A stretch of 21,880 nucleotides of DNA from a virus. The stretch covers positions 1 to 21,880 of the IMG/VR virus record IMGVR_UViG_3300026382_000058; one strand, given 5' to 3'. Position 1 is the stretch's first letter, and every line of letters starts with the position of its first letter. Shown piece by piece: positions 1-9,842 of this stretch. The notes under the pieces are model-generated. The model saw nothing but the letters and a program-made list of their open reading frames with translations, was not told where the DNA came from and made no database searches. The translations under genes and the position numbers were made by a program.

Positions 1-1
1 A

Positions 2-1720
2 AATGAAGAAAAAATATGTCCTTATTGTAATACTATATATTATACTAATAATAAAACTTGTGGTAAAAAAGAATGTAAAGTAAAAGCGATAGAAGATACA
101 AATATCAAAAAATATGGTTGTAAGAGTCCTATACAGAATAAAGAAATACAAGATAAAATTAAAGATACTAATTTGAAAAAATATGGAGTTGAATTTCCAT
201 TACAATCTGATAAAATTAGGGAAAAAGCAAAAAAGACATCTAAAGAAAAATATGGATTTGAATCACCTTTAGAATCTAAAGAAATTCAAAATAAAATTAA
301 AGAAACAAATTTGAAACGATATGGTGTTGATAATCCTATTAAAACTGAAGAAATACAAAACAAAATTAAAGAGACAATTATTGAAAAATATGGAGTTGAT
401 AATGTATTTCAAAATGAAAATATAAAAGAAAAAATAAAACAAACTAATTTAGAAAAATATGGAGTAACAAGTCCTATTAAAAACGAAGACATAAAAGAAA
501 AAATAAAGAAAACTAATTTAGAAAAATATGGAGTTGAATATGCAACACAAAATAATAATATAAAAGAAAAGATGAAAAAAACCAATTTAGAAAGATATGG
601 ATTTGAATATCCATCTCAAAATAATGATATAAAAGAAAAGATAAGTCAAATTCAAAAAAATAATAATTTGAATAAATTTAAGGAAAAATATAAAAATATT
701 TTAACTTATTTGGAACATAATATAGATAAATATATAAACAATAACAGATTAAATGCTACTAAAATATGTGAAGATTTTAATTTACATTATAGAGAAATAC
801 ATATTTTATATGAATATTTTAGTGAATTATTTGATTTTGATTTCTATTTTGAACAAGGAAATTCTAAAGTAGAAAAAGAAGTATTAGATTATGTAAAATC
901 TATTTATAATAACACTATAATAGAAAATGATAGAAAGATATTAAATGGTAAAGAATTAGATATTTATATTCCAAATAAAAACTTTGCTATAGAATTTGAT
1001 GGTCTTTATTATCATTCTTATTCTAATATAGAAGAAGTAAATAAAAATTACCATATTAATAAAACAATTGAATGTGAAAAAAATAATATACATTTGTTTC
1101 ATATCTTTGAAAACGAATGGTTAGATGAAGTCAAGAAAGATATTTGGAAATCTAAAATTAGTATTAAATTACATTCTAAAAAATTAAATAAATTAAATGG
1201 AAGAGATGGAATTATAAAAGAAATTGATTCCAAAATAGCAAAAGAATTTCTTAATGAAAATCATTTACAAGGTTATACTAATGCTAAAATAAAATTAGGA
1301 TTTTTTATAAATAATATTCTATATGGTGTTATGACTTTTGGAAAAAGTAGATTCAAAAAAGATGAATACGAATTAATAAGATTTAGTGTGCTAAAATATA
1401 CAATAGTAAGAGGTTTATTTTCTAAATTTATTAAATATTTTAAGAAGAATTATAACATAAATAATTTAATATCATATGGAAATAGAAGATGGACTTATAA
1501 AGATAATGTTTATAATTCTCTAATGGAATTAGAATCTATATCTAAATCTAATTATTTTTATGTTAAAAACAGACAATTATTATCAAGACAACAATTTCAA
1601 AAACATAAATTGAAAGATTTATTAAAAAATTTTAATCCTAATAAAACAGAATTAGAAAATATGTTAAATAACAAATATAGAATTATATATGATTGTGGAA
1701 ATTATAAATATAAATTATGA
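2..1720 (+). CDS. Putative intron-encoded homing endonuclease (Vsr-like/EDxHD type), 5' end outside window
   Basis: The frame is open from base 2, so the true start lies upstream; the TTG at 173 is internal and lacks a ribosome binding site. The visible 572 residues begin with a zinc-finger-like Cys cluster (C6, C9, C20, C25). Eight regular 23-residue repeats built on TNL-KYG follow (about residues 33-215), typical of DNA-binding arrays in phage homing endonucleases. A nuclease-like segment (about 286-385) carries E318-x-D320 and E331-x-D333 with H338, resembling the Vsr/EDxHD fold. The C-terminal 180 residues form a conserved domain shared with the second endonuclease at 2744-4498. It lies directly before a capsid exon that has no ribosome binding site, so I infer it sits inside an intron and spreads it by cutting intronless capsid alleles. 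Cleavage activity is inferred, not shown. Confidence 0.85.
   Translation, partial: NEEKICPYCNTIYYTNNKTCGKKECKVKAIEDTNIKKYGCKSPIQNKEIQDKIKDTNLKKYGVEFPLQSDKIREKAKKTSKEKYGFESPLESKEIQNKIKETNLKRYGVDNPIKTEEIQNKIKETIIEKYGVDNVFQNENIKEKIKQTNLEKYGVTSPIKNEDIKEKIKKTNLEKYGVEYATQNNNIKEKMKKTNLERYGFEYPSQNNDIKEKISQIQKNNNLNKFKEKYKNILTYLEHNIDKYINNNRLNATKICEDFNLHYREIHILYEYFSELFDFDFYFEQGNSKVEKEVLDYVKSIYNNTIIENDRKILNGKELDIYIPNKNFAIEFDGLYYHSYSNIEEVNKNYHINKTIECEKNNIHLFHIFENEWLDEVKKDIWKSKISIKLHSKKLNKLNGRDGIIKEIDSKIAKEFLNENHLQGYTNAKIKLGFFINNILYGVMTFGKSRFKKDEYELIRFSVLKYTIVRGLFSKFIKYFKKNYNINNLISYGNRRWTYKDNVYNSLMELESISKSNYFYVKNRQLLSRQQFQKHKLKDLLKNFNPNKTELENMLNNKYRIIYDCGNYKYKL
98..649 (+). repeat. Eight tandem 69-bp coding repeats (KYG repeats)
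   Basis: Eight consecutive units of exactly 23 codons, each reading roughly T-N-L-x-K-Y-G-V-x-x-P-x-Q, then a Lys/Glu-rich helix ending in IKEKIKK. The spacing is exact: 8 x 69 = 552 bases. The DNA copies have diverged while the protein pattern is kept, so this is a selected protein repeat rather than a fresh slippage array. Confidence 0.85.
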
Positions 1721-1897
1721 TATCAGATTATAAAATCATATTATAAAAAAATTAAATAAAAATATATATAAAAGTATGAATAAAGAGTTTATTTTTTATA
1801 AAAATTTTAATATAATTATGAAAGAAAAAATTAAATAAATATAAACACAAATATAGATTAAGAAGATATTTATCTTCTAATTTATATTAAATATTTT

Positions 1898-1942
1898 ATA
1901 TGATGTTATAAAAAATTAAATAATATTGATATAACATCATAT
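1898..1942 (+). other. Perfect 13-bp stem-loop in intron tail
   Basis: Arms 1898-1910 and 1930-1942 are perfectly complementary with a 19-base A/T loop. A second stem (1942-1949/1960-1967, containing AAGGTAT/ATACCTT) follows directly. Likely peripheral elements of the intron RNA, alternatively a terminator for the endonuclease transcript. Confidence 0.6.
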
Positions 1943-2015
1943 AAGGTATTTGAAATATAATACCTTAAAATACAACATTCTTTATTAGAATAAATGTATT
2001 TGATATTTGTTTTTC

Positions 2016-2035
2016 AGGTATCGAGAACGATATTT
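2016..2035 (+). other. P9-like hairpin just before the inferred 3' splice site
   Basis: TATCG-AGAA-CGATA, extended by two G-U pairs and one A-U pair, ends nine bases before G2044. Its 5' arm plus loop (TCGAGAA, 2021-2027) is also perfectly complementary to exon bases 2074-2080 (TTCTCGA), so an alternative pairing with the exon is possible. Confidence 0.45.
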
Positions 2036-2044
2036 AACATCAAG

Positions 2045-2664
2045 TATTCAAATCTTATGAAATGAGTAAAAGATTCTCGATGAATACAGAAGAAATTTTG
2101 GGACAGGATTTAGTTAATGAGCTTAATTCTACATTAAGTGCTAAAGTTGTTAGAGAATTATATAGAGGTGCTGCAAGTACTTTAACTTGGGACAAACAAG
2201 CACCAAGTGGAGTAAGTTTTACAGAACACATTTTAAGTTTCACAGCAAAATTAGCACAAGCAGAAAACACAATTCTTGCTCAAAGTGGGCAATTAACTGG
2301 GAATATTTCATATATTGTTGGTTCTGATGTTGCTGGTATATTAAGAGCAATGCCTGGATTTGTACCTGTTACAGATGTTAGAGCATCAAGTGGTACTCAT
2401 TTATATGGAACATTAGATGGAAGACCTGTAATTAGGTCATTAGTAATGCCAAGTGATGAAATGATTATGGCTACAAAATCTGATGATGGTTTTTCAAGTT
2501 CAGTTGTATATGCACCATATATGCCATTATTCATTAGTAATCAAATGAATGGACAAGATCACAACCCATTAAAGGCACAAAAAGTTGCTGCTACAATGTG
2601 TGGTATTAAATCGGTTAATCCTTTCTTGAGTACTAAAATTAAAATTCTTAATGCAACAATCTAA
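2045..2664 (+). CDS. Major capsid protein, C-terminal exon
   Basis: About 206 codons of the C-terminal part of a T4 gp23-like major capsid protein; full proteins of this family are usually over 400 residues, so the N-terminal half is upstream of the window. The segment F-K-S-Y-E-M-S-K-R-F-S-M-N-T-E-E-I-L-G-Q-D resembles the region before the helix in which gp23-type proteins carry AQDL. The stretch around 2281-2400 (GNISYIVGSDVAGILRAMPGF) and the DGRPVIRS strand fit the capsid P/A domains. The exon start is uncertain by a few bases. The first in-frame ATG (2062) has no AAAGGA-type site, unlike almost every other gene here, which argues against an independent gene. The stop is followed by a GC hairpin. 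I recognise the family by pattern; fold-level confidence is good, the exact subfamily is unknown. Confidence 0.75.
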
Positions 2665-2743: not shown

Positions 2744-4498
2744 ATGCAAAAATGTAATTATTGTAATCAAGAATACAATAACAGAAAGAAAATGATAAAT
2801 TTTGACAATAAATTGTTTTGTAAAAAAACTTGTCTTCAAAAATATTGTTTAGAACAAATAGAAAATAATTTAGATTTTAATTCAAATTCAAATTTAGATA
2901 AAAAATATGTAGAAAAATTAGTAAATTTGAATAATGGTAAATATATATCAAGAATTAAAATAAATATTAATACAAAATCTATGATAAATAATTTTTTGTG
3001 GAAATATAAAGGAAATAAAGACAAAAAATGTTTAACTTGTGGTAGAAATATTTTACAATCTTATTTGAAAAGAAATGTGTTATATCTTCCTGAAAAAACA
3101 ACATATTGTTCTATGAGTTGTGCATTAAAAAATGAAGAAACACAAAATAAAATCAAAAATACAAAAAAAGAACGATATGGAAACGAAAATTACAATAATA
3201 TGTTAAAAAATAAACAAACTAAAAAAGAACGATATGGAAATGAAAATTACAATAATATGATAAAAAATAAACAAACACTTAAAGAAAAATATAATGTTAC
3301 AAGTAGTTTCCAATTAGAACATGTTGAAGAAAAAAGAAAACAAAGTTGTGTATTAAAATATGGTGTAGAAAGACCATTTCAAAATAAAGAAATTCAAAAT
3401 AAAATTAATAAAAATGTTAGAGAAAAACATTTAATTGAATACAAAGAAAAATATAAAAATATATTAAATAATTTAGAAAATAACTTGAATAGTTATGTTA
3501 AAAAAGGAAGAATAAATGGTACTAAAATATGTGAAGATTTCAATTTACATTACAAAGAACTTTACATTATAAATAAATATTTTAATATTTTTTCTAACTA
3601 TGAAATTTATTTTGAACAAGGAAATTCTAAAATGGAAAAAGAAATAGCAGAATATATTAAATCTATTTATGATGGTAAAATAATAGAAAACGATAGGAAA
3701 ATATTAAATGGTAAAGAATTAGATATTTATATTCCTGATAAAAATTTTGCTATTGAATATGACGGATTATTATATCATTCTTATGGTAAAACATTTCCTA
3801 ATAATGTTGAAATTTTAGATAAAAATTATCATTTAAATAAAACTATACAATGTGAAGAAAAAAACATTCATCTTTTTCATATCTTTGAAAATGAATGGTT
3901 AGATGAAATTAAAAAAGATATTTGGAAATCCAAAATAGCAATTAAATTATATTCTAAAAAATTAAATAAATTAAATGCTAGAAATGGTTATATAAAACCT
4001 ATAGATACATTTGAAACCAAGATTTTTTTAGAACAAAATCATTTACAAGGATATGTTCAATCTAAAATTAAATTAGGATTTTTTATAAAAAATGAATTAC
4101 TTGGAGTAATTACATTTGGTAAAAGTAGATTCAAAAAAGATGAATATGAATTAATAAGATTTGCAACTAGGAAGTATACTATTATAAGAGGTTTATTTTC
4201 TAAATTTATTAAATATTTTAAGAAGAATTATAATATTTCTAATTTAATATCATATGGTAATAGGAGATGGACTTATAAAAATAATGTTTATGATTCTCTA
4301 ATGGAATTAGAATCTATTTCAAATCCAAATTATTTTTATTTTAAGAATGGTGATTTATACAGTAGAATTAAATTCCAAAAACACAAACTTAAAAATATAT
4401 TAGAAAATTTTAACGAAGATAAAACTGAATTAGAAAATGTATTAGATAATAATTATAGAATTATATATGATTGTGGTAATTATAAATACAAGTTATGA
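2744..4498 (+). CDS. Putative free-standing homing endonuclease (paralogue of the intron-encoded one)
   Basis: This 584-residue protein starts at an ATG with an AAAGAGGA site seven bases upstream. Two Cys4 clusters are visible: C4, C7, C26, C30 and C96, C99, C122, C126. A shorter repeat array follows, including two nearly identical 19-residue TKKERYG units, one T-L-K-E-K-Y unit and one KYGVERP unit. The nuclease-like segment has E338-x-D340 and H345 in the same context as the upstream sister. The C-terminal third is close to the sister at both protein and DNA level, down to the final YKYKL and the bases after the stop. It sits between the capsid gene and the next head genes, as an intergenic mobile gene would. 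It is expected to cut capsid-region DNA of related phages and promote its own inheritance; the target site is unknown. Confidence 0.8.
   Translation: MQKCNYCNQEYNNRKKMINFDNKLFCKKTCLQKYCLEQIENNLDFNSNSNLDKKYVEKLVNLNNGKYISRIKININTKSMINNFLWKYKGNKDKKCLTCGRNILQSYLKRNVLYLPEKTTYCSMSCALKNEETQNKIKNTKKERYGNENYNNMLKNKQTKKERYGNENYNNMIKNKQTLKEKYNVTSSFQLEHVEEKRKQSCVLKYGVERPFQNKEIQNKINKNVREKHLIEYKEKYKNILNNLENNLNSYVKKGRINGTKICEDFNLHYKELYIINKYFNIFSNYEIYFEQGNSKMEKEIAEYIKSIYDGKIIENDRKILNGKELDIYIPDKNFAIEYDGLLYHSYGKTFPNNVEILDKNYHLNKTIQCEEKNIHLFHIFENEWLDEIKKDIWKSKIAIKLYSKKLNKLNARNGYIKPIDTFETKIFLEQNHLQGYVQSKIKLGFFIKNELLGVITFGKSRFKKDEYELIRFATRKYTIIRGLFSKFIKYFKKNYNISNLISYGNRRWTYKNNVYDSLMELESISNPNYFYFKNGDLYSRIKFQKHKLKNILENFNEDKTELENVLDNNYRIIYDCGNYKYKL
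3161..3274 (+). repeat. Two tandem 57-bp coding repeats in the second endonuclease
   Basis: Units 3161-3217 and 3218-3274 differ at only a few bases and encode two 19-residue copies beginning TKKERYGNENYNN. The near-identity points to a recent duplication, unlike the diverged 69-bp units of the sister gene. Confidence 0.85.
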
Positions 4499-4536
4499 TA
4501 TCAGATTATAATATCAGATTATAATATCAAATTATA
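4498..4536 (+). repeat. Three tandem 13-bp repeats after the endonuclease stop
   Basis: ATATCAGATTATA occurs at 4498-4510 and 4511-4523, with one mismatch at 4524-4536. The same unit follows the sister endonuclease at 1720-1732, with a degenerate second copy at 1733-1745. This sequence therefore appears to belong to the duplicated cassette. Confidence 0.8.
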
Positions 4537-4549
4537 ACATTAAAATAGA

Positions 4550-4879: not shown

Positions 4880-4929
4880 ATCTTTATTAAAATATTATAA
4901 TTTATTGAAATATTATAATGTATTAAAAA

Positions 4930-4938
4930 ATTAAATAA
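4930..4938 (+). promoter_or_regulatory. ATTAAATAA element upstream of the 4958 gene
   Basis: It is embedded in AAAAAATTAAATAAATATAA, with AAAAGGA directly downstream. There are 19 bases between the element and the ATG, the spacing also seen at 9815-9823 and 19126-19134. Candidate late promoter core or translation-initiation element; see the finding on this motif. Confidence 0.4.
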
Positions 4939-4957
4939 ATATAAAAGGAAATATAAA

Positions 4958-5371: not shown

Positions 5372-5991
5372 AAATAAATTTTGAAGATATTAAAAAATTA
5401 GTAGAATCAGATAGTTCATTAATTATTAAACAAATTGGTGAAGGTTTAGTAATTAAAAGAGCAGATGGTTCAGTTACACCTGATGTAGAAGAAATTGTTA
5501 CAATTTTAAGACAATTTGGAGTTAAAGATTCTTCAATTGAGATTGTAGATGAAGGAACATTAGTTGAAAGTGGTAGTTATAATGCTCAAAAATTAAAAAT
5601 GATTTTAGCACCTTTTTATAAATTAGGTGAATTAAAAGTATTTTCAACTTGGAAATTGTTACTTAAAGGTATTTATATTGTAGAAGAAGATTTAAAATCA
5701 GTACCTGAAATATTAAAAGAAGAAAACAATGGTTCAGCTGATGATTTAGGTACAGTTCCAAATGGACAACCAAACAATAATAAAAATGTAACTGCTGTAA
5801 CAATAGAACAAATTGCTACAATTTTAGATAAAAATTTTGGTAATGAATGTAACATTGAAATTTTAAGTGATTCAGAATTAATAGTTAATCCTATAAGCGA
5901 TGAATTAATCAAATTTATAGAAAATAATGTTGATTTATTTGGTGATGCTGAAATTGTTATAGATGATGATAATATAACAATTACTTTATAA
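5368..5991 (+). CDS. Hypothetical protein with two similar halves
   Basis: This 207-residue acidic protein is translationally coupled to the preceding gene by a four-base ATGA overlap and has no separate intergenic leader. The halves look alike. Residues about 45-105 (LRQFGVKDSSIEIVDEGTLV...FYKLGELKVF) and about 148-207 (LDKNFGNECNIEILSDSELI...DLFGDAEIVI) share the pattern helix, SxIEI strand, acidic-turn-L strand, helix, G-x-(A/L)-x-V strand. A Gly/Asn/Pro-rich linker (about 119-138) joins them. This suggests an internal domain duplication. The function is unknown. Location in the head/neck region makes a structural or assembly role plausible. Confidence 0.65.
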   Translation: MKINFEDIKKLVESDSSLIIKQIGEGLVIKRADGSVTPDVEEIVTILRQFGVKDSSIEIVDEGTLVESGSYNAQKLKMILAPFYKLGELKVFSTWKLLLKGIYIVEEDLKSVPEILKEENNGSADDLGTVPNGQPNNNKNVTAVTIEQIATILDKNFGNECNIEILSDSELIVNPISDELIKFIENNVDLFGDAEIVIDDDNITITL

Positions 5992-7156: not shown

Positions 7157-7217
7157 AATATATTTATATAATAAAATTAAATAATAAAAAATATTATAAA
7201 AAATAAAGAGGTTAAAT

Positions 7218-7820
7218 ATGACTAAAAAAGAATTAATAGATTATATATTTGTAAATTCAAATCAATATTTTATAGGAATTGAAAATTTTGAAATTAAAAA
7301 ACCTGTATTAGATGGTTTAGTTAATAGAGCATTAAATATATATGGACAATATAAAGAAGTTGAAATACTTATTCCTATTTTTATTTCAAGTTATAGAACA
7401 CAATTAAAAAAAATAGAAGATGAATTTGGTAAGTTAAGACAAGTAAAAAGTATAAAAGATATTTATATGTTAGATTATAGAAAATTTCCTGTTGATAATA
7501 GAGAAGATTTTAGAATTCCATTTCAATGGCAATTTGATAATACAAGAAAAGTATTATCAACCTCATTCAGACAAAGATGTTATATAGAATGTTTGTGTTC
7601 TCCTATTTTGGATGACATCGATTATCAAAATCAAGAATTTTTAGATATTATGTTAGGTTTAACATTAATTTATATAGGACATAATAGAACAGATTTCGTA
7701 TTAAATGATTTACCTACAGAAATTAGAGATTTAAGAGATGAAGGTCAAGATTTATTGGAAAAAACAATAGAATATCTAAAAGAATCAGGAAATTCAAATT
7801 GGTATTCAGCAATATTATAA
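7218..7820 (+). CDS. Putative head-tail connector (neck) protein
   Basis: This 200-residue protein has AAAGAGG ahead of the ATG. It is helix-rich, with an N-terminal helix pair, a conserved-looking centre (VKSIKDIYMLDYRKFPVDNREDFRIPFQWQF, with aromatic and Pro/Arg residues typical of virion proteins), and a C-terminal helical part ending in NSNWYSAIL. It follows the capsid genes and precedes the sheath, the usual place of connector or neck proteins. I infer such a role from position and style. No signature residue fixes the family, and other virion roles are possible. Confidence 0.7.
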   Translation: MTKKELIDYIFVNSNQYFIGIENFEIKKPVLDGLVNRALNIYGQYKEVEILIPIFISSYRTQLKKIEDEFGKLRQVKSIKDIYMLDYRKFPVDNREDFRIPFQWQFDNTRKVLSTSFRQRCYIECLCSPILDDIDYQNQEFLDIMLGLTLIYIGHNRTDFVLNDLPTEIRDLRDEGQDLLEKTIEYLKESGNSNWYSAIL

Positions 7821-7863: not shown

Positions 7864-8046
7864 ATGAAGAATAAAACAAAAATATATAAAGTTATAAATG
7901 ACTTTATTTTTAATGATGTTAATTATAAAAAAGATGAAACTTTTAGTATAAGTAAAAATAAAATAAAAAAATTTGATTTTTTTATTAAAAACAAACTCAT
8001 AAAAGAAGTTGAATCTAATTTTGAAGAATTAGATATTGAATTATAA
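7864..8046 (+). CDS. Small hypothetical protein
   Basis: This 60-residue Lys-rich protein starts at an ATG preceded by AAAAAAGGT. By eye it is a small strand-rich fold (KIYKVINDFIFNDVNYKKDETFSI, then KFDFFIKNKLIKEVE), reminiscent of short domains in which a length-limited beta unit ends in a VE strand. The N-terminal part of the 4958-5371 product has a similar outline. Not recognised. It is sandwiched between two probable neck genes. Confidence 0.55.
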   Translation: MKNKTKIYKVINDFIFNDVNYKKDETFSISKNKIKKFDFFIKNKLIKEVESNFEELDIEL

Positions 8047-9808: not shown

Positions 9809-9814
9809 ATAAAA

Positions 9815-9823
9815 ATTAAATAA
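9815..9823 (+). promoter_or_regulatory. ATTAAATAA element upstream of the 9843 gene
   Basis: A second copy of the nonamer (9804-9812) overlaps the preceding stop codon. The copy at 9815-9823 is 19 bases before the ATG and is followed by AAAAGGA. Confidence 0.4.
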
Positions 9824-9842
9824 AAATAAAAGGAAAAAATAA

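Follow-up and report, generated by a model that had tools for sequence, protein, structure and literature searches.

The window analysed here is the whole of IMG/VR record IMGVR_UViG_3300026382_000058 (21,880 bases), and DNA upstream of its first position lies outside the record. It opens inside an endonuclease ORF (HEG1), which is followed by a hairpin-rich non-coding stretch, the C-terminal part of a gp23-type major capsid protein (MCP) gene and a second endonuclease gene (HEG2). The coordinates of these features are collected in Table 1.

Table 1. Features at the interrupted capsid gene, in window coordinates
Feature	Position	Strand	Basis
Intron, 3' part; 5' end and catalytic core predicted off-contig	1..2044	+	same-site introns in L014/L015, L115, L118
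HEG1, intron homing endonuclease, 572 aa, 5' end open; Vsr-like (EDxHD-type) nuclease domain, DUF7487 repeats	2..1720	+	phrog_3339, PF24308, profile to 3r3p
Non-coding 3' tail of intron, rich in hairpins, 324 nt	1721..2044	+	folding against shuffles; no Rfam intron match
Strong hairpin, arms TATGATGTTATA / TATAACATCATA	1899..1941	+	sequence and folding
Possible hairpin GGTATT / AATACC; absent from the predicted minimum-energy structure	1945..1964	+	sequence
Predicted 3' arm of P9.1-like stem; 5' arm presumably before HEG1, off-contig	~2000..2016	+	position analogy with L015, L115, L118
Last hairpin of intron, GGTATCG-AGAA-CGATATT (P9.2-like)	2017..2034	+	sequence; relatives have theirs there
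TAA in capsid frame, within intron	2035..2037	+	reading frame
Terminal G of intron; 3' splice site 2044|2045	2044	+	alignment to intact L012; comparison with L112 and same-site introns
3' exon: C-terminal part of gp23-type MCP, including stop	2045..2664	+	PF07068, phrog_138, tblastn
HEG2, free-standing homing endonuclease with own SD, directly behind capsid gene	2744..4498	+	phrog search, SD check, HEG1 alignment

Positions 2045-2661 code for the C-terminal ~206 residues of the MCP, in a frame that is open from 2038 to 2661, after the TAA. The capsid segment contains the Gp23 domain (PF07068, E = 2.8e-14, 53.8 bits against a cut-off of 24.4, profile positions 163-338 of 376), matches phrog_138 (6.8e-10), and has tblastn matches in 33 of 50,697 phage records. 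An earlier interpretation made from the letters of the window alone (the sequence-only reading) had a capsid-like segment resuming right after the in-frame TAA, and these searches bear it out. Used alone as query, the capsid fragment found no relative in a scan of viral_contigs, although the alignments A1 and A2 did find relatives; a single-sequence search gave it no PDB match. No second MCP copy was found within the record, and thus no separate full-length capsid gene of the kind that the sequence-only reading had named as evidence against an interrupted gene.

The 3' boundary was placed by alignment to the DNA of an intact homologue, L012, which reads GGTTTATTCAAATCA where the window has AAGTATTCAAATCTT. 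From 2045 on, the two are 92%, 87% and 73% identical over 12, 30 and 60 bases, and over the same distances before 2045 they are 33%, 33% and 23% identical. This jump puts the junction at 2044|2045, in phase T|TA (Leu), and the intronless locus L112, whose residues 262-464 are 60% identical to the window's 3' exon, fixes it as well. Seen from the 3' side, which is the side present in the window, the TAA at 2035 would be lost with the intron, the phase of the 3' exon allows T|TA to be read as Leu, and the intron ends in G2044, to the base where the sequence-only reading had put its terminal G. The string of hairpins that this reading had described as ending about nine bases before the G was also recovered: the region 1718-2062 has a predicted folding energy of -64.3 kcal/mol (z -4.5; 0/100 shuffles as low), and nine bases (2035-2043) lie between the last hairpin (2017-2034) and G2044.

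Two alignment-based scans of viral_contigs, with 36 and 60 capsid loci, together yielded 65 distinct ones. When intact capsids were mapped onto 75 phage and IMG/VR loci, 12 were found to be split: L009 (phage SP-15), L014, L015, L032, L033, L035, L115, L118, L130, L133, L134 and L137. In this exon map the window shows only the C-terminal capsid part. Four loci are split at the very base at which the window is interrupted (T|TATT), namely the near-copies L014 and L015, L115 and L118. In these same-site relatives the 3' exon starts TATT(G/C)... and the intron ends in G. Each has a group I intron match (RF00028) at the end of its 5' exon, with scores of 55.7 (L014), 55.6 (L015), 55.4 (L115) and 79 bits (L118). 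With cmscan at gathering thresholds there was no match in L115 or L118, though another RF00028 search scores both over the cut-off; we take the miss to be an effect of the fast filters. All three same-site relatives tested have a P1 guide pairing with a terminal U.G, of 7 bp in L015, 8 bp in L115 and 6 bp in L118; equal pairing is reached by chance at 4.7%, 1.5% and 11.4%, respectively, of the T positions in the same locus. The 3'-exon pairing, P10, comprises 4/6 positions in L015 and 6/6 in L118.

Among these relatives, L115 has the nearest intron-bearing capsid C-exon found for the window (61%). Its intron is 2,501 nt long, with the 5' exon ending at 5500 and the last intron G at 8001, and with the intron taken out the gene reads EIGLFKSYEM in frame, end to end. 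The flanks of the insertion are 87.5% and 90.5% identical to intronless L112 DNA over 200 nt, and the capsid proteins of the two are 92-94% identical. L115 and L112 thus form a natural intron-plus/intron-minus pair.

An Rfam search over the window (E<=1) and over 1700-2110 (E<=10), the check that the sequence-only reading had proposed, gave no intron match, so that the RF00028 matches are those of the relatives at the same site; a CRISPR-DR6 match at 7211-7239 was rejected (25.6 bits, below the gathering score of 39). In L015, L115 and L118 the core match directly adjoins the 5' exon, and the intron ORFs come after the core. These ORFs are enclosed by stems of 11, 10 and 11 bp, respectively, whose distances to the terminal G of the intron are 33, 29 and 36 nt; stems of such length were reached in 0, 5 and 0 of 500 shuffles each (the test covered these three of the four same-site loci). 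As the stems flank them, the ORFs of the same-site introns appear from sequence to sit in a 3' peripheral loop. Since all three relatives have the core upstream of the intron ORFs, the core of the window's intron is expected upstream of the contig end. The 3' fragment of the SP-15 intron, whose ORF precedes P7', is seen by the same kind of Rfam search (19.8 bits, E 0.0028); the lack of such a P7' fragment match in the window agrees with an ORF sitting behind the core. Against the intron reading stand the lack of an Rfam match in the window itself and the length of its 324-nt tail behind HEG1, which exceeds the tails of the three same-site relatives and is not alignable to them by eye. By this analysis the P3/P7 core should lie off-contig and its absence would not be odd. 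The apparent group I intron of the sequence-only reading is therefore retained, on the strength of same-base relatives with RF00028 cores and the intronless near-twin of L115, while the unusual AT-rich type that had been offered for the missing core is not needed.

The best explanation, to which we give a probability of about 0.93, is that the window starts inside a mobile group I intron interrupting a gp23-type MCP gene. Once all sequence through G2044 had been spliced out, the 5' exon, which would lie off-contig and is predicted to end ...GG-N-T, would be joined to TATTCAAATC at 2045 to give ...G-L-F-K-S-Y-E-M... in one frame. The ribozyme core would lie upstream of HEG1, and HEG1 in a 3' peripheral (P9.1-type) loop, such that the window holds ORF and tail only. 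By cutting capsid alleles that lack the intron, HEG1 would presumably drive intron homing. A group II or other type of intron is very improbable: the window's core would lie outside the visible DNA and group II introns do occur in phages, to judge from the accessible portions of the literature, but the introns of the same-site relatives match RF00028, have U.G at their 5' splice junction and terminate in G, and group II families had no match in the Rfam searches above.

The endonuclease alone is weak evidence for an intron, because most of its relatives have no link to one: in 19 of the 22 records with such a relative, RF00028 has no match at all. This preponderance of free-standing relatives would suit a split gene with no intron: the capsid gene would have been disrupted by a free-standing endonuclease, and its two halves would be produced as separate polypeptides that assemble, as in nrdA of phage Aeh1. 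The capsid segment does contain an ATG, at 2062, the first possible start past the TAA. However, a start there loses the conserved LFKSYE, and, as the sequence-only reading had remarked of the missing ribosome binding site, no SD-like sequence precedes it, versus 17/17 other ATG starts checked (loose pattern; ATG starts only). These points, together with the group I cores and splice-site pairing in three same-site relatives, make a split gene improbable. In metagenomic phage genes, nucleases of the type assigned to HEG1 are also found between the halves of split inteins, which would fit a fractured gene with a split intein and the endonuclease between its halves; but only two codons lie between the TAA at 2035 and the capsid codons, so a C-intein has no room, and we consider the chance of this negligible.

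The sequence-only reading had placed an endonuclease gene ahead of the capsid segment, and the ORF at 2-1720 is indeed a homing endonuclease, matching phrog_3339 (1.8e-138) and PF24308 (6.4e-57); it is cut by the window start, and the capsid segment opens 0.3 kb after it. Single-sequence search of the PDB with the endonuclease gave no match. A profile of the HEG1 C-terminal part (A4, 11 relatives) matches 3r3p, 'Mobile intron protein', weakly (E 0.0012), which points to a Vsr-like domain. We take 3r3p to be I-Bth0305I, an EDxHD homing endonuclease; the likeness to HEG1 is confined to the nuclease domain, detected by profile, and the parts outside that domain have no match. I-Bth0305I is treated as an EDxHD homing endonuclease in the accessible part of PMC3943268.

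HEG1 and HEG2 are 64% identical over 468 aligned positions, their C-terminal parts (74%) being more alike than their N-terminal parts (36%), and 14 nt past the stop are common to both. A HEG2 homologue lies behind the capsid gene in five of six close intronless relatives (L111, L113, L114, L116 and L117; not L112). In a tree of the C-terminal part with 62 rows, eight capsid-linked endonucleases form one group (100/98), within which HEG1 is sister to HEG2 (100/99) and nested in free-standing endonucleases (98/95), all these values being from a bootstrap that had not settled. When the first 60 residues of HEG2 were searched, good matches among the best 8 rows were only HEG2 itself, L113, L114 and L116 (E 2e-9 to 1e-7); the other rows of these 8 had E about 1, and HEG1 gave no good match. 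The first 45 residues of HEG1 match other endonucleases, that of L115 at 4e-4, weaker than that of L077 at 2e-7. We read this pattern as a probable exchange of the nuclease half between the intron and the neighbouring place, the N-terminal parts being different. Transfer of an entire free-standing endonuclease to the intron is a weakened proposal, as the N-terminal halves do not match. Tentatively, the intron endonuclease may have been rebuilt from its neighbour, with the nuclease half of HEG1 taken from, or kept in step with, the HEG2 lineage and the N-terminal, presumably target-reading half coming from elsewhere; we regard this as possible and somewhat doubtful. If true, it would be a natural snapshot of introns gaining or retargeting an endonuclease, at a site used by several cargoes. 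Holding the two intron endonucleases (window and L115) together was not rejected by the AU test (p 0.205), and holding the six free endonucleases together was weakly rejected (p 0.030, for a group named after seeing the tree); two independent captures, in the window and L115, are thus not established. How introns acquire endonucleases is an open question, reviewed in PMC3984707 (accessible part), and sister endonucleases of which one is intronic and one next door bear upon it. The portions available of PMC10448857 and PMC3984707 discuss collaborative homing as well as free-standing endonucleases located close to capsid genes.

The introns at the shared site carry different ORFs. That of L115 contains an endonuclease of HEG1's family (44% identity over 459 positions) and a 200-aa ORF, relatives of which are found in the L118 intron and in L115's own first intron (pairwise blastp E 1.8e-13 to 2e-5); the L015 intron contains a 147-aa ORF (L015:7505-7948). 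From these differing ORF sets we conclude that one insertion site has held different cargo. The small intron ORFs had no Pfam match above cut-off and no PHROG match at E<=0.001. Two of the three were searched against NCBIfam and had no match. For the L015 147-aa ORF, Pfam (above cut-off), PHROG and NCBIfam all gave no match. The L118 small ORF had no relative in phage records, and viral_contigs returned just the query. One small-ORF structure model was of low confidence (pLDDT 68). Small intron proteins of 157-225 aa with a shared K-P-K...R...R-x-W pattern are encoded at L115:7350-7952, L115:4115-4792 and L118:7403-7876, and in two of these three capsid introns there is no endonuclease beside the small protein.

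Of the 65 IMG/VR records, chosen for bearing a capsid gene, 47 were searched with RF00028. Matches at E<=0.001 numbered 14 and came from 11 records (5/20 and 6/27); 9 of the 14 score above the cut-off. Although the records searched total 2.08 Mb, all 14 matches lie inside MCP genes when the loci are compared with the exon map; at least two near-copy pairs (L014/L015 and L133/L134) reduce them to about 12 distinct matches. In L112 numbering, approximate insertion points lie at 64-83 (L032, L035, L115), 96-99 (L033, L130, L133/L134), 279, 323 and 421-437, and those resolved to the base are 261-262 (the window, L014/L015, L115, L118) and the SP-15 site at ~265. L032, L035 and L115 each have two group I introns in the capsid gene. 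In records chosen for a related endonuclease (22, chosen from 63 loci), 13 RF00028 matches were found in 3 of the 22, 10 of them in one contig, and group I introns of this type therefore occur elsewhere in phages. That contig (L057; G056, IMG/VR, 100-kb) has its ten group I matches within 11 kb, at 81,355-92,057. A literature search that reached few subscription papers found no report of capsid genes as a hot spot for group I introns.

A capsid-gene intron with an endonuclease is of a known kind. In mycobacteriophage LittleE an intron lies in the major capsid gene and its splicing was demonstrated by RT-PCR; the same paper cites lactococcal phage Tuc2009 for a capsid intron (PMC3706429, accessible part). 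The LittleE intron resembles ours in that exon 1 ends in U (here the 5' exon end is predicted), the intron ends in G and an endonuclease-like frame lies inside. It differs in that the LittleE capsid is HK97-type and the frame is LAGLIDADG-like and lies on the opposite strand (PMC3706429, same portion). In the window the capsid is gp23-type, and the Vsr-like endonuclease is encoded on the strand of the capsid gene. For Bacillus phage SP-15 (KT624200), the annotation gives the MCP as a joined CDS; this MCP too is gp23-type, with an endonuclease-bearing group I intron a few codons from the window's site, but the insertion is ~12 nt further into the exon, the endonuclease is annotated as Phage_endo_I-like, and the ORF stands before P7'. 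L115 shares with the window the insertion base and the endonuclease family, the L115 enzyme being encoded directly behind the core, but has a second ORF in the intron and a further intron closer to the start of its capsid gene; in the 414 nt after that gene no endonuclease was seen. Many essential genes of the Jug phages are split by group I introns, according to the portions available of PMC12363816. By itself, the window's intron, lying in a late structural gene, would simply add to the known group I introns of phages. Seen alongside its relatives, it would belong to one insertion site used by introns of different cargo, in a gene where group I introns pile up.

Two repeated sequences were noted around the endonuclease genes. 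A 19-base unit is present as three tandem near-copies at 4493-4537, starting at the HEG2 end, and as one copy at the HEG1 end (1715-1733). The motif AAAAATTAAATAAA has 13 matches (<=1 mismatch) versus 3.2 expected, all on the + strand, at 1747-1760, 1826-1839, 1911-1924, 4926-4939, 9811-9824 and 8 more sites. Several stand before genes, three are in the intron tail and two lie inside endonuclease genes, and the motif is possibly a promoter or other intergenic element.
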